This document shows, piece by piece, positions 5,586 through 11,770 of a stretch of 36,550 nt of DNA. This stretch comes from Myxococcales bacterium. Its GTDB lineage: Bacteria > Myxococcota_A > Polyangia > GCA-2747355. Every line of letters starts with the position of its first letter. The stretch's first letter is position 1. Location of the stretch: contig JAGQIK010000164.1 of NCBI GenBank assembly GCA_020431405.1, forward strand, positions 1 through 36,550. The letters run 5' to 3'. The translations under genes were made by a program, and so were the position numbers. The notes under the pieces are model-generated. The model saw only the letters and a program-made list of their open reading frames with translations, had not been told where the DNA came from and ran no database searches.

Positions 5586-5602
5586 ATGAACATTTGTTCA
5601 GT
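5586..5602 (+). promoter_or_regulatory. LexA-box-like operator 1 (GAAC-N4-GTTC)
   Basis: GAACATTTGTTC at 5588-5599 is a near-palindrome of the GAAC-N4-GTTC kind. Extended to ATGAACATTTGTTCAGT it also fits the Myxococcus LexA consensus as I remember it (CTRHAMRYBYGTTCAGS) at 15 of 17 positions. It lies 44 bp upstream of imuA and 40 bp upstream of the divergent methyltransferase start, so it could control both. Confidence 0.55.
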
Positions 5603-5652: not shown

Positions 5653-6518
5653 TCGCCAGGGATGGAGGCGCCGCCGAGGCGCGCAAAGGGCTCGCAAAGG
5701 TCATCTCTGCTTCCACAGCGACAAAGCTGCGACCAGCCGCTGACGTCGAGCGCCCGAGCGAGGTGCTCGCGACGGGGCTGGCCAAGCTCGACGCGCTGTT
5801 GCCCGACGGCGGCGTTCCGCGCGGGCAGCTGAGCGAGATCAGCGGCGGGCGTTCGTGCGGCAAGCGCGCGCTGGCCTGCGCGCTGGTGGCGCGCACGCTG
5901 CGACAGCACGAACGCGCGGTGTGGATCGACGGCAGCGGCGGCTTCTATCCGCTGTTGCCGCTCGAGTTCGGCGTGCCGCTCGATCGGCTGGTGGTGGTGC
6001 GGGTGCCGGTGGAGAAGGGCAGGATGTCTGGCGGCGCGCGTGGGCGGCGCCGGTCGCGCTCGGCGAGCACGCGCGGGAGCAAGCAGGTGCGCTGTTTCCC
6101 GAGCGCGCGCGCCGAGTCGCTCAACCACTGCCCGCCGGCGCTCAAAGCGGCAGACATGTTGATGCAGGCCGGCAGCGCCTTGACCCTCTGCATCGTCGAT
6201 CTACCGGCGCGCACGACGATCTCGCCGCGGCTGTTAGCGCGCCTGCGCCTCGGCGCCGAGACGAGCGGCGCGGCGGTGCTGTTCATCACCGAGCAAACAA
6301 CGCTGGCCGGCGGGCGCACTGCAGGCGGCGGCTACAATCGACGGCTCGAGTCGCTCGGCACGTTCATCAGCTTGCAGCTGTCGATCACGCGCGACACGAC
6401 GACCGCCGCTGGCGCCATCGACGTGCACATCGCCAAGAGCAAGCGCGGCTGCATGGAGCAGCACGCGATCGTGACCCTCGATGAGCCGCACAGCATGCGC
6501 CTGGATACCACGGTTTGA
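5643..6518 (+). CDS. imuA: ImuA, RecA/SulA-related accessory factor of mutagenic repair
   Basis: The protein has 291 residues. ImuA works with ImuB and DnaE2 in damage-induced translesion synthesis. The sequence shows a RecA-like core: VLATGLAKLDALLPDGGVPRG leads into a degenerate Walker A (GGRSCGKRAL, with Arg where RecA has Thr), then AVWIDGSGGFYPLLPLEFG and LCIVDLPARTTISPRLLARL. The context immediately upstream of imuB and dnaE2 supports the name. The start at 5643 (MFSIARDGG) lacks a well-placed ribosome site (GGGAG is 17 nt away) and is covered by a LexA-like box, fitting leaderless translation. The last 38 bp overlap imuB, suggesting translational coupling. The degenerate P-loop is seen in other ImuA proteins. 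Confidence 0.85.
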   Translation: MFSIARDGGAAEARKGLAKVISASTATKLRPAADVERPSEVLATGLAKLDALLPDGGVPRGQLSEISGGRSCGKRALACALVARTLRQHERAVWIDGSGGFYPLLPLEFGVPLDRLVVVRVPVEKGRMSGGARGRRRSRSASTRGSKQVRCFPSARAESLNHCPPALKAADMLMQAGSALTLCIVDLPARTTISPRLLARLRLGAETSGAAVLFITEQTTLAGGRTAGGGYNRRLESLGTFISLQLSITRDTTTAAGAIDVHIAKSKRGCMEQHAIVTLDEPHSMRLDTTV

Positions 6519-8082
6519 GCTGAGGGCGCGGCTTTCCGAGCAGCCCGAGCTCGGTGGTCAGGCGCTGATCATCGCCGACGCCAGCTCGACGCGCTCGGTG
6601 GTGGTTGGCGCGTCGGACGAGGCGCGCGAGCAGGGCGTGGCGGTCGGCATGTCGATGGTGACGGCGCGCGCGCTGTGTCCCGAGGCGTTGATCATCCCGC
6701 CCGACGCGGCTTTCGTGCGCGAGGTCAGCGAGCGCGTGCTGCGCGCGCTGTATCGCTTCGCGCCGGTGGTGGGACGCGACGGTCACGGCGCGTTTTTCCT
6801 CGACCTGCGTGGGCTCGAGCGGCTGCACCCGGACGAGCAGGCGCTGGCGGCGGCGATCGCGCGCGCCACCGCCGAGCTGTGCTTGCCTTCGCTGGTGGCC
6901 ATCGCCGACGAGCCGATCACGGCTTGGATCGCGTCGCGCTGTCTGGAGCGCTCTGTGGTGATCACGATCCCGCCCGGCGAAGACGAGGCGTTTCTGGCGC
7001 AGCTGCCGATGAGCGCGCTGCCGATGCCCGACGAGATCGGGCGGCTGTGTCGCGTGCTGGGGCTCGAAAAGGTCGCCGATCTGCAGCGGCTGCCACCGGG
7101 CGCGCTGTGCCGGCGCTTCGGGCGCGTCGGCGAGGAGGTCGAGCTGCGCGCCAAGGCGCGCGCGCACGAGGTCTACAGCGTCGAGATCCCCGTCGACCCC
7201 GAGCGCGTCGAGCTGCCGCTCGACGATCCTACCGACGACTACGAGGTGCTGCTCTTTCTGCACAAGAGCGTGCTCGACCGGCTGCTCAAGCAGGTGGCGG
7301 CGCGGCGTCGCGCGCTGGCGGCGCTGTCGATCGAGCTCGTGCTCTCGGACAGCGATCGCAGCGTGGTGACGCACGTGCTGCGGCCGGCGCGGCCGACGCT
7401 CGACGGGCGCGCGATGCTCGAGCTGGTGCGGCTGTGGCTCGAGCGCGGGCCGCTACCGGCGACGAGCGATGAAGACGGGTCGGCAGCAAATGCGAATGCC
7501 GCGGACGACTGCTACGCGGCCAACGCGATGGTCGACAGCATCGGCATGACGGCCATCGAGGTGGCGGTGGCCGAGGCGCGGCAGCTCGCGTTGTTCGAGC
7601 GCAACGCGGTGCTCGACGACGACGCCATGGCGGCGGCCATCGCGCGGCTGGTCGCGGCCTTCGGCAGCGACTCGGTGGTGCGGCCGCAGCTGACGTCGAG
7701 CTACCGGCCCGAGACGCGCATTCAGTGGGTGCCCTGCGTCGGCGCGAGCGCGAAAGCGCAGGGCGATAGCGCAGCCGTTGGCGCTGGCGCTGGCGCTGGC
7801 GATGGCGATGTCCCGCCGGTGTTGTCGCTGCTCGCCGAGGCGACGCCGGTGACGCTCGATCTGACGCGCCGCTGGCTGGCCTTCGGCGAGCACGAGCAGC
7901 GCGAGCTGGTGCAGATCGACGGGCCGTTTCACCTCGAAGGCCAGTGGTGGGATCAGGGCTTTCGGCGGCGCTACCTGCTGGTGCGCACCGATCTGGGCGA
8001 GGTCTGCCTGCTCTATCAGGAGGCGGCGCTGCGTTTTGGTGGCGCGCTGGGCGAGTGGTACCTGCAAGGCTTTCTCGACTGA
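6481..8082 (+). CDS. imuB: ImuB, Y-family polymerase-like protein of the mutasome
   Basis: The protein has 533 residues from ATG 6481, overlapping imuA by 38 bp. It has the layout of a Y-family (DinB/UmuC) polymerase: N-terminal ACAWIPRFELRARL, VVGASDEAREQGVAVGMSMVTAR, and FFLDLRGLERL. Acidic catalytic residues of active family members are not conserved at the N-terminus (WIPRFEL where DinB has a D-D type motif), as is known for ImuB. ImuB acts as an adaptor joining DnaE2 to the sliding clamp. A clamp-binding pentapeptide QLALF is present around residue 368. The A/G-rich insert GAGAGAGDGD near residue 435 is low complexity. A C-terminal region with RRRYLLVRTDLGEVCLLYQ follows. Start and frame are unambiguous. 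Confidence 0.88.
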   Translation: MSRTACAWIPRFELRARLSEQPELGGQALIIADASSTRSVVVGASDEAREQGVAVGMSMVTARALCPEALIIPPDAAFVREVSERVLRALYRFAPVVGRDGHGAFFLDLRGLERLHPDEQALAAAIARATAELCLPSLVAIADEPITAWIASRCLERSVVITIPPGEDEAFLAQLPMSALPMPDEIGRLCRVLGLEKVADLQRLPPGALCRRFGRVGEEVELRAKARAHEVYSVEIPVDPERVELPLDDPTDDYEVLLFLHKSVLDRLLKQVAARRRALAALSIELVLSDSDRSVVTHVLRPARPTLDGRAMLELVRLWLERGPLPATSDEDGSAANANAADDCYAANAMVDSIGMTAIEVAVAEARQLALFERNAVLDDDAMAAAIARLVAAFGSDSVVRPQLTSSYRPETRIQWVPCVGASAKAQGDSAAVGAGAGAGDGDVPPVLSLLAEATPVTLDLTRRWLAFGEHEQRELVQIDGPFHLEGQWWDQGFRRRYLLVRTDLGEVCLLYQEAALRFGGALGEWYLQGFLD

Positions 8083-8101
8083 ATTGGCAATGAGCAATGA
8101 G

Positions 8102-8280
8102 GAACCAGTCAATGCGAATACATGAACGACGGAATCGAAGAACGCGAAGTACGAATGGGTGGCTCGCGACACCTTCGCTGTACGACGTGCGCCCGCGTCG
8201 CAAGCATTCTGAATTCGCGTTCCTTGTTCCGTCGTTCATGTATTCAAGCTCGTTGTTGCGAATTCACAATTGACCAGTTC
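8102..8280. repeat. 179 bp imperfect inverted-repeat element between imuB and dnaE2
   Basis: Two perfect 19 bp arms, GAATACATGAACGACGGAA at 8116-8134 and its reverse complement at 8227-8245, are extended inward by matching AACGCGAA (8141-8148 and 8214-8221) and GAATG (8153-8157 and 8205-8209). Outward, GAACCAGTCAAT (8102-8113) matches the complement of 8269-8280 at 10 of 12 bases. The whole could fold into one long stem with a loop of about 47 nt. It is visibly richer in A and T than its neighbours and codes for nothing convincing. A MITE- or REP-like insertion is the likeliest reading. Its right end covers the dnaE2 start codon. It fills the gap between imuB and dnaE2. Confidence 0.65.
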
Positions 8281-11200
8281 TTTGTATGCGGAGCTTCACT
8301 GTCGCTCCAACTTCAGCTTCCTGCGCGGCGCGTCGCATCCGCGCGAGCTGGTGGCGCAGGCGGCGGAGCTGGGGCTCGAGACGCTGGCGCTCGTCGACCT
8401 GAGCGGCTTCTATGGCGTGGTGCACGCTTGGGAGGCGCGCGGCGACATCGCCGAGGCGCTCGACAAGCAGCAGCTCACCATTGTCGATCCAAGAGAGATA
8501 CCACGCGAGGCTCGGCGCGTGGCCGACGCGCGCAACTGGCCTGGCGCGACGCTGCCGCCCGAGCTTTCGGGCGCACACCGCGAGGAGCGCGACGAGCGCG
8601 ACGACGACGTCAGCGAAGGCGATGGCTTCGTGCTGTCCAGCGTGCGCTGTCTGCCGCGGCTGCTCTACGGCAGCGAGCTCGAGATCCGCAGCGAGCGCGC
8701 CGAGAGTGCGATGGCGCGCGCGCGGCGAATGGCGCGGCCCGCGGGCGAGCGCGAGGCGCCGCCGCCCGACGACGCGCTGGTTATGCTGGCGCGCGATCGC
8801 GACGGCTACGCGTTGATCTCGCAGCTGGTCAGCCGCGGGCGGCTGCGCGTGGAGAAGGGCGGCATCGAGCTCTATCGCGACGAGCTGCTCGAGCTCGCCG
8901 CCGGCAGCGGCGGGGAGGGCGTGATCGTGCTCGCCGGCGGGCCGCGCAGCCGCCTGCTGCGACGCCTGCGCGACGGCGACGAGGCCGGCGCGCGGCGCGA
9001 GCTGGGCGAGCTGCGCGAAGTCTTCGGCGACGCGCTGTATGTCGAGCTGACGCGCCACTTGCGGCCAGGCGACGTCGAGCGCTCGCTGGCGCTGCGCGCG
9101 CTGGCGGACGCGTCGGGGGTCGAGGCCATCGCCAGCAACGACGTCTTCTTTCACACGCGCGAGCGCAAGATGCTGCACGACGTGCTGACCTGCATCCGCG
9201 AGGGCCTCACGCTGCGCGAAGCGGGGCGCGCGCTGCTGCCCAACGCCGAGCGCGCGCTCAAGACCGGGCGCGAGATGCTGGCGCTCTTTCGCGACATGCC
9301 CGACGTGGTCCATCGCACCGTCGAGGCGGCGAGCCGCGTGACGTTCACCCTCGACGAGCTGTCGTACTGCTATCCGGCCGAGGCGGTGCCGCCGGGACAC
9401 AGCGCCGACTCGTTTCTCGCCGAGCTCGCACGGCGCGGGCTCGAGCAGCGCCTCGGGCGCCGCCGCGCGCGCGACCTGCTGCCGCAGCTTCGCCGCGAGC
9501 TCGCGATCATCGGCGAGTTGCGCTACGCCGGCTATTTTCTGACCATGTGGGAGGTGGTGCAGTACTGCCGCCAGCACGGGATCCTCTGTCAGGGCCGTGG
9601 CTCGGCGGCCAACTCGCTGGTCTGCTTCTCCACCGGCATCACCTCGGTCTCGCCCGATCAGATCGACATGCTCTTCGAGCGCTTCTTGTCGGTAGAGCGC
9701 AAGGAGCCGCCCGACATCGATCTCGACATCGAGCACGACCGGCGCGAGGAGGTGCTGCAGTACGTCTACAAGAAGTACGGGCGCGACCGCGCGGCGATGG
9801 TGGCGACGGTGATCCGCTATCGCGCGCGCTCGGCGATCCGCGACGTGGGCAAGACGCTGGGGCTCAGCGAGCAGACCGTGCTGCGCATCAGCAAGTTCAC
9901 CACGCACGGCTGGGAGAAACCCGAGGACGGCTCGCCCGATCCGCACGAGCGCGCCGCGCTGGCGGCGGGGCTCGATCCCAAGGGTCGCACCTGGCGCCAG
10001 CTGGTCGGTCTCGCCGCCGAGCTGCAGAGCTTTCCGCGCCACCTGTCGATCCACACCGGCGGCTTCATGCTCTCGAGCCGGCCGGTGGCCGACATCGTGC
10101 CCGTGGAGAACGGCCGCATGCCCGACCGCACGGTGATCCAGTGGGACAAGGACGACATCGACTCGCTCAAGATCTTCAAGGTCGACCTGCTCGGGCTCGG
10201 CATGCTCAACGTCATCGCGCGCGCCTTCCGGCTGATCAAAGCGCACCGCGGCGTCGAGCTCGAGCTTCACAGCGTGCCGCAGGACGACCGCGCCACCTAC
10301 GAGATGATCCAGCGCGCCGACACGCTCGGCGTCTTTCAGATCGAGTCGCGCGCGCAGATGGGCATGCTGCCGCGGCTCAAGCCGGCCTGCTTCTACGACC
10401 TCGTGATCGAGGTCGCGCTGGTGCGTCCAGGACCGATCCAGGGCGGCATGGTGCACCCCTACCTGCGGCGCCGGCGCGGCGAGGAGCGCGTCGACTATCC
10501 GCACCCCAAGCTGCGCCCGATCCTCGAGCGCACGCTGGGCGTGCCGATCTTTCAAGAGCAGGTGATGAAGATGGCCATCGAGGTCGGCGGCTACTCGCCG
10601 GGCGAGGCCGATCAGCTGCGCCGCGACATGGCGGCCTGGCGCCGCAGCGGCAAGATGGAGCGCCACCAGGCGCGGCTGTTTCGCAAGATGTGCGAGAGCG
10701 GCATCGACGAGGAGTTCGCCGAGCGCATCGTGCGCCAGATCGAAGGCTTTGGCTCCTACGGCTTTCCCGAGTCACACGCGGCGGCCTTCGCGCACCTGGT
10801 CTACGTCTCGGCCTACATCAAGTGCCACTACGCGCCGGAGTTTGCTGCGGCGCTGTGCAACGCGCAGCCGATGGGCTTCTATCACGTCTCGTCGATCGTC
10901 GCCGACGCGCACCGCCACGGCATCCCGATCCGGCCGGTGTGCGTGCAGCGCAGCGAGTACGAGGCGACGCTCGAGGAGGTCGACGAGCACCTGCCGCCGC
11001 CGCCCGCGGACAGCGCGCGCTACAAGCGACGTACGCTGGCGCTGCGCATGGGGCTGCGCTCGGTGCGCGGGCTCAACGAGGCGGCCGCGCGCGCGGTCGT
11101 CGCCGAGCGGCAGCGCGGCGGACCGTTTGCCAGCATCGCTGACCTAGCGCGCCGCTGCGCGGTGGTGCGCGGCGATGACGACGAGGCCAAGCCGCTGCGG

Positions 11201-11770
11201 CGTCGTGACGTGGCACAGCTCGCTTACGCCGGCGCCTTCGGCGCGCTGGTCGAGCGGCGCGGTGCGATCTGGCAGGCGGTGGCGCTCGGCGGCAGCGACC
11301 TGGTGGCCAACGTGCTCGACGAAAAGCCGATGCACTTCGACCCGCTGCCTCGCAGCGAGCGCGTGCGCATGGACTACTGGTACTCGGAGAGCTTTCTCGA
11401 GGACCACCCGATGAAGCTCTATCGCTCGCGGCTGCGCGGGCGCGGCGTGACGCGCTCGCTCGAGCTCAAACGCGTACCGCCGGGGCGGCTGGTCAAGGTC
11501 GCTGGCGTGGTGATCGTGAGGCAGCGCCCGAGCGGTCCCGGCGGCGTGGTGTTCATGGCGCTCGAGGACGAGACGGGGCTGGTCGACATCGTGCTGCGGC
11601 CGGAGATCTTCGAGCGCAACCGCGTGCTGATCTGTATGGCCGAGATGCTGCTCATCGAAGGGCAGCTGCAGGCCGACGGCGACGCGCGCAGCGTGATGGC
11701 TCATCGGCTCGAGACGCTGGCGCGCGAGGGCGACGGCGCCTACGGCGTTCGCTCGCACGACTTTCATTGA
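8270..11770 (+). CDS. dnaE2: DnaE2 (ImuC), error-prone DNA polymerase III alpha subunit
   Basis: The protein has 1166 residues, slightly long for the family. It is the catalytic polymerase of the ImuA-ImuB-DnaE2 translesion system. The N-terminal PHP domain begins YAELHCRSNFSFLRGASHP. The polymerase core has CQGRGSAANSLVCF (about residue 442) and the catalytic aspartates in PPDIDLDIEHDRREEV (about 480). Helix-hairpin-helix and C-terminal OB-fold parts (VKVAGVVIVRQRPSGPGG) follow. The frame is closed upstream by TGA at 8210 and contains no ATG or GTG before YAELH, so the start must be TTG at 8270 (or TTG 8282), with no ribosome site. Both codons lie at the end of the inverted-repeat element. 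An extra stretch of about 60 charged residues (roughly 65-125) interrupts the PHP domain. Confidence 0.9.
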   Translation: MTSSLYAELHCRSNFSFLRGASHPRELVAQAAELGLETLALVDLSGFYGVVHAWEARGDIAEALDKQQLTIVDPREIPREARRVADARNWPGATLPPELSGAHREERDERDDDVSEGDGFVLSSVRCLPRLLYGSELEIRSERAESAMARARRMARPAGEREAPPPDDALVMLARDRDGYALISQLVSRGRLRVEKGGIELYRDELLELAAGSGGEGVIVLAGGPRSRLLRRLRDGDEAGARRELGELREVFGDALYVELTRHLRPGDVERSLALRALADASGVEAIASNDVFFHTRERKMLHDVLTCIREGLTLREAGRALLPNAERALKTGREMLALFRDMPDVVHRTVEAASRVTFTLDELSYCYPAEAVPPGHSADSFLAELARRGLEQRLGRRRARDLLPQLRRELAIIGELRYAGYFLTMWEVVQYCRQHGILCQGRGSAANSLVCFSTGITSVSPDQIDMLFERFLSVERKEPPDIDLDIEHDRREEVLQYVYKKYGRDRAAMVATVIRYRARSAIRDVGKTLGLSEQTVLRISKFTTHGWEKPEDGSPDPHERAALAAGLDPKGRTWRQLVGLAAELQSFPRHLSIHTGGFMLSSRPVADIVPVENGRMPDRTVIQWDKDDIDSLKIFKVDLLGLGMLNVIARAFRLIKAHRGVELELHSVPQDDRATYEMIQRADTLGVFQIESRAQMGMLPRLKPACFYDLVIEVALVRPGPIQGGMVHPYLRRRRGEERVDYPHPKLRPILERTLGVPIFQEQVMKMAIEVGGYSPGEADQLRRDMAAWRRSGKMERHQARLFRKMCESGIDEEFAERIVRQIEGFGSYGFPESHAAAFAHLVYVSAYIKCHYAPEFAAALCNAQPMGFYHVSSIVADAHRHGIPIRPVCVQRSEYEATLEEVDEHLPPPPADSARYKRRTLALRMGLRSVRGLNEAAARAVVAERQRGGPFASIADLARRCAVVRGDDDEAKPLRRRDVAQLAYAGAFGALVERRGAIWQAVALGGSDLVANVLDEKPMHFDPLPRSERVRMDYWYSESFLEDHPMKLYRSRLRGRGVTRSLELKRVPPGRLVKVAGVVIVRQRPSGPGGVVFMALEDETGLVDIVLRPEIFERNRVLICMAEMLLIEGQLQADGDARSVMAHRLETLAREGDGAYGVRSHDFH

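Follow-up and report, generated by a model that had tools for sequence, protein, structure and literature searches.

A mobile palindrome that appears to have landed between imuB and dnaE2 in a Myxococcales bacterium

MITEs and the small palindromic repeats of bacteria (e.g. Correia/NEMIS, RUP, ERIC, YPAL and RPE) are small, dispersed, intergenic sequences with inverted ends and long stems. The relevant part of PMC2229807 describes such repeats as mostly A+T-rich with TA ends, and reports some that are fused in frame to genes. REP families, whose units are palindromes of 20–40 bp, are described in part of PMC3733652, together with TIR families associated with Y1 transposases; the TIR repeats of the TIRYT/TIRtron systems are inverted-repeat units present as solo or dimer copies, while REPINs, the REP dimers moved by RAYTs, consist of two inverted intergenic units with a spacer and are likewise accompanied by solo units. 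The gene for the error-prone polymerase DnaE2 is described in PMC5285347 as normally sharing an operon with imuA and imuB. Here we describe an element of similar build in a 36,550 nt stretch of a Myxococcales genome (the window), where a mobile palindrome appears to have landed between imuB and dnaE2 (Table 1).

Table 1. Positions of the genes, the palindromic element and its parts in the window
Feature	Position	Strand	Remarks
imuB	6481–8082	+	Pfam IMS; C-terminus matched beside dnaE2 in relatives
Whole inserted palindromic element	8083–8275	.	Outer limits approximate; based on fold, G003 empty site and arms common to 12 other loci
Left arm	8090–8159	+	Less typical end, B-like, weakly assigned; model R1 55.0 bits, E 4.9e-14
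GAGGA, possible Shine-Dalgarno site of the 53-codon frame	8099–8103	+	8 nt before ATG 8112
53-codon frame across the element	8112–8273	+	ATG 8112 to TGA 8271–8273
19-bp core, left arm	8116–8134	+	Perfect match to 8227–8245
Centre of element	8157–8204	.	Without clear homology to centres of other copies
Right arm	8203–8270	-	A-type end; model R1 70.9 bits, E 5.6e-19
19-bp core, right arm	8227–8245	-	Perfect match to 8116–8134
dnaE2, error-prone polymerase III alpha subunit	8270–11770	+	Pfam PHP, DNA_pol3_alpha, DNA_pol3_finger, HHH_6
TTG, candidate present dnaE2 start	8270–8272	+	Choice of start is our interpretation
TTG, alternative dnaE2 start	8282–8284	+	Directly 5' of YAELH

The preliminary description of this locus, made from the sequence letters, had reported a palindrome filling the gap between the two genes, and this was borne out: the perfect 19-bp arms were found, and the RNA fold of 8090–8300 (-88.7 kcal/mol, z -6.07) was matched in stability by 0 of 200 dinucleotide shuffles. 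Additional 29-nt arms (8140–8168 and 8194–8222) are 72% complementary, and the palindrome as a whole is asymmetric, its arms being identical at 42 of 61 compared positions. An intrinsic terminator (GC-rich stem, short loop, T run) was sought in 7950–8400 and a sigma-70 promoter in the element; neither was found, and both roles were rejected.

The dnaE2 frame is closed upstream by TGA 8210–8212, and the only ATG, GTG or TTG codons between this stop and the YAELH motif are TTG 8270 and TTG 8282, as the preliminary description had it. If only these three codons count, one of the two TTGs must now be the start; we consider TTG 8270 the likelier. No Shine-Dalgarno-like sequence was seen by eye in the 20 nt upstream of either, in agreement with the earlier claim that both lack a ribosome site. 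That description had also placed TTG 8270 in the outer arm; as similarity to other copies spans about 8090–8270, the codon can now be assigned more precisely, to the right arm's outer edge. A 1006-codon open frame (8122–11142) overlaps dnaE2 in a different frame and probably results from the high G+C content of the coding sequence. Further upstream in the window, within an imuA-like open frame from TTG 5538, lies TGAACATTTGTTCA (5587–5600), with 6-bp inverted arms and a 2-nt spacer, which resembles a LexA (SOS) operator.

Further copies of the element, which the preliminary description had proposed to look for, were first revealed by a DNA search of the bacterium's own genome (11.2 Mb in 733 contigs, estimated 95.7% complete) and by a search with the 19-base core, which gave 22 matches with up to 3 mismatches, compared to 0 for the reversed control. 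A model of the arms, R1, placed 22 arms at 13 loci (E 2.2e-20 to 4.9e-14), with the next match at E 0.11; since R1 was built from the same 22 arms, it is the clean score gap below them, rather than their recovery, that constitutes the result. Few candidate stretches were scored in this search (150 of 3471), as in those of relatives and of the class described below, so decayed copies could be missed. Nine loci carry two arms (the window copy on C641, two on C393, and one each on C150, C465, C312, C49, C723 and C214) and four carry a solo arm (C388, C384, C390 and C24). By our own gene calls and Pfam, the flanking genes run in the same direction at nine copies, converge at two and diverge at one, with the C150 copy being unclear; the adjoining genes include der, gpsA, a UDPGP-family uridylyltransferase and M1 and M13 peptidases.

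Some copies touch neighbouring genes or repeats. At C723 (L036/L113) a GTG before AATTC, at the outer end of an arm, may serve as start of the M1-peptidase gene, in the same frame as the dnaE2 start at the window copy, and at C24 (L040/L117) a 2-oxoacid dehydrogenase acyltransferase-like gene ends at a stop codon provided by the solo arm. GGGCCTC heptamer repeats adjoin three copies (L032, L038), clearly at one C393 copy and at C390 and imperfectly at the other C393 copy; a search for GAAT-periodic repeats, made on a guess, gave 0 matches.

Two types of arm end, A and B, each about 60–70 bp long, can be told apart. The distinction is clear in C150, in the two copies on C393 and in C312, less marked in C641, C465 and C49 (left side), and almost lost in C723 and C214; the right arm of the window copy shares 0.89 identity with arms C465_R and C150_L. 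Identity between arms is lower within elements (mean 0.738) than between elements (0.778), a value as low being reached in 0.6% of 20,000 random matchings, and units with two unlike ends therefore seem to spread as wholes. Once 22 nt of inner arm are trimmed off, the centres are 5 to 91 nt long, and they have 65–80% G+C; among the eight of nine long enough to compare, only matches of 7–10 bases were shared (best E 0.008 in this small set). No consistent target duplication emerged: at the best fixed offset a repeat was shared by at most 3 of 9 copies, a count to be read with the fuzzy ends of the element and the lack of a chance control in mind. All nine two-armed copies (143–229 bp as cut for folding) fold better than their shuffles (z -5.3 to -11.2, 60 shuffles each), in contrast to the 22 arms folded alone, which are no more stable than shuffled sequence, with a mean z of +0.59 on one strand and +0.56 on the other.

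In relatives the element appears to be absent. It had 0 DNA matches in 58 relatives, none of them from the same genus, with up to 13 candidates scored per genome. A class-wide search with the arm model (317 genomes including the bacterium's own, stricter filters, 15 candidates scored each) returned nothing from the 316 other genomes except one weak match in G244 (27.6 bits), which we take as chance and reject as a family member since inverted repeats do not surround it and, judged by eye, the stretch looks like coding sequence. The exact core had 0 matches in viral contigs, and the C150 copy had no match in plasmids.

Of the relatives in which a dnaE2 could be located, G003 is the nearest; it is a distant member of the same order, and its DnaE2 is 69% identical over 1031 aligned codons. 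There the imuB TGA is followed by cgcccATGgcc and then by the TAC of YAELH, so that the distance from imuB stop to YAELH is 11 nt compared to 202 nt in the window, and the dnaE2 start lies 5 nt from the imuB stop (TGA 8080–8082 in the window) compared to 187 nt for TTG 8270. Two members of the same family, G001 and G002 (83% and 67% complete), have only DnaE matches of 33–34% identity and are thus uninformative about the dnaE2 site; the bacterium itself has a second strong DnaE match (C708, 33% identical), presumably the replicative DnaE. Among 66 loci with DnaE2 matches the dnaE2 N-terminus is present in 63, and in 21 of these, the window included, an imuB C-terminal match (counted if reaching residue 480 or more) lies directly upstream. 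The gap in the other 20 pairs ranges from -8 to 124 nt (median 17), and the nearest in-frame dnaE2 start is ATG in 17, GTG in three and TTG in none, lying more than 10 codons upstream in two.

Two further loci could be compared with relatives. At C312 the distance from der to its convergent neighbour is 194 nt, compared to 39 nt in G001 and 14 nt in G003. The solo arm at C24 sits between two genes and supplies the upstream gene's stop, while the best match of that gene in G003 (59% identical; a second match is 49% identical) overlaps the next gene at TGA/ATG; the downstream proteins of the two genomes show no convincing match to each other, and the case for synteny at C24 is that both resemble lipoproteins by eye. 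Three of the 13 loci were thus compared, and in relatives all three look empty. As the repeat is dispersed and the sites compared look empty in relatives, the native dnaE2 start was most likely replaced by an insertion, as the preliminary description had proposed: with arms at 13 loci, 0 of 58 relatives matched and an 11-nt gap with ATG in G003, the sequence comparisons support this well. A lack of other copies together with conservation in relatives, the pattern it had set against an insertion, was not what the searches returned. It is unlikely that native intergenic DNA was caught between two arms, the native gap in G003 being 11 nt compared to a centre of 48 nt.

The element thus behaves like a MITE: it is small, its inverted arms are both present at nine of 13 loci and single at four, and it is dispersed, with empty sites in relatives. 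It differs from MITEs and the other small palindromic repeats in that neither a target duplication nor a transposon with matching ends was detected and the centres of its copies show no clear homology, and its G+C-rich centres set it apart from the A+T-rich majority of such repeats described in PMC2229807. No autonomous transposon sharing ends with the 22 arms was found, and a Pfam scan of 24 predicted genes neighbouring the copies revealed no transposase family; the genome being 95.7% complete in 733 contigs, an autonomous partner may be missing from it. Since no such partner was detected and no consistent duplication was seen at the fuzzy ends, we do not claim membership of the MITEs.

Solo and two-armed copies are also features of the TIR repeats (PMC3733652), and the genome holds 12 Y1 transposase matches (L118–L129). 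Inverted repeats of 160–260 bp surround three of the 12 loci (L119, L121 and L123) within the DNA examined, and many of the loci, among the matches listed, share flanking sequence in the manner of TIR-associated tyrosine transposases. In contrast to TIRYT-linked repeats, the arms of our element flank none of these genes: there were 0 arm matches in the 12 loci, some of which are cut by contig ends, and no contig carried both an arm and a Y1 match. Mobilisation by the resident Y1 transposases was rejected on this ground, though they might act in trans. The arms were also rejected as REP units, since at 60–70 bp they are longer than REPs and do not form hairpins alone.

We consider it quite probable that a small, non-autonomous, MITE-like palindrome of about 190 bp, with inverted but distinct conserved ends A and B and a variable centre, landed just 3' of the imuB stop and displaced a dnaE2 start that, as in relatives, would have lain close behind imuB. 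Direct coupling of dnaE2 to imuB has probably been lost, judging from the spacing of the two genes, and DnaE2 output would then fall relative to ImuB. Residual translation of DnaE2 most likely proceeds by weak initiation at TTG, perhaps aided by reinitiation from the 53-codon frame, while the hairpin would be a by-product rather than an evolved regulator, the stem being present because the two ends are inverted.

It is possible, if doubtful, that the element itself restores coupling, with ribosomes leaving imuB starting at ATG 8112, crossing the hairpin and reinitiating at TTG 8270. The GAGGA site stands 8 nt before this ATG, and the TGA of the frame overlaps TTG 8270 in the four bases TTGA, so ribosomes translating a frame that crosses the hairpin and overlaps the TTG might open the hairpin. 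With TTGA held fixed, 39 of 3000 shuffles gave such a frame with a Shine-Dalgarno-like site and 416 of 3000 gave the frame when the site was not required, an estimate that is conditional on TTGA and concerns a frame noticed post hoc. However, ATG 8112 is 29 nt past the imuB stop, and in the pairs tested in the relevant part of PMC10666635 an intergenic distance of about 20 nt almost abolished termination-reinitiation coupling, so that such a relay would depend on its own Shine-Dalgarno site. The frame is also particular to the window copy, since other copies do not share its centre. We hold it improbable that the family, with its conserved asymmetric ends, has a centre captured or remade at each move, and that the dnaE2 copy in this way rewired translation through a frame ending in TTGA.

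We think it unlikely that the insertion instead crippled dnaE2, leaving a hardly translated gene on its way to becoming a pseudogene. The gene does lack an ATG or GTG start, close coupling to imuB and a Shine-Dalgarno-like site at either TTG, but counting from TTG 8270 it keeps 1166 codons free of stops, and it departs from G003 most often at the third codon position (0.24, 0.19 and 0.41 at positions 1, 2 and 3), an excess which may itself reflect constraint from before the insertion. It is in our view very unlikely that selection maintains the element as a regulatory RNA hairpin which keeps synthesis of the mutagenic polymerase low, for example by masking the TTG or by offering a site to RNase III; that the folded RNA could restrict translation had been suggested in the preliminary description. 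The fold is very stable and TTG 8270 lies at the foot of the stem, but the same arms adjoin unrelated genes at the 12 other loci, and an arm agrees with its own partner no more closely than with the partners from other copies (0.738 compared to 0.747 after swapping B partners; p 0.90 for an own-partner excess, 0.81 with G-U allowed), so that selection for the hairpin was not detected. No compensatory changes between arms were detected, and Rfam covariance models gave 0 matches to 8000–8400 up to E 1.

Under the insertion reading that we prefer, the element is a fairly ordinary, familiar sort of mobile repeat, and the locus provides a before-and-after case in which a small mobile repeat replaces the start codon of a mutagenesis polymerase, with relatives representing the empty state. 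The insertion pushes apart two genes that normally lie close together, and a connection of mutation rate with a selfish repeat thereby becomes testable.
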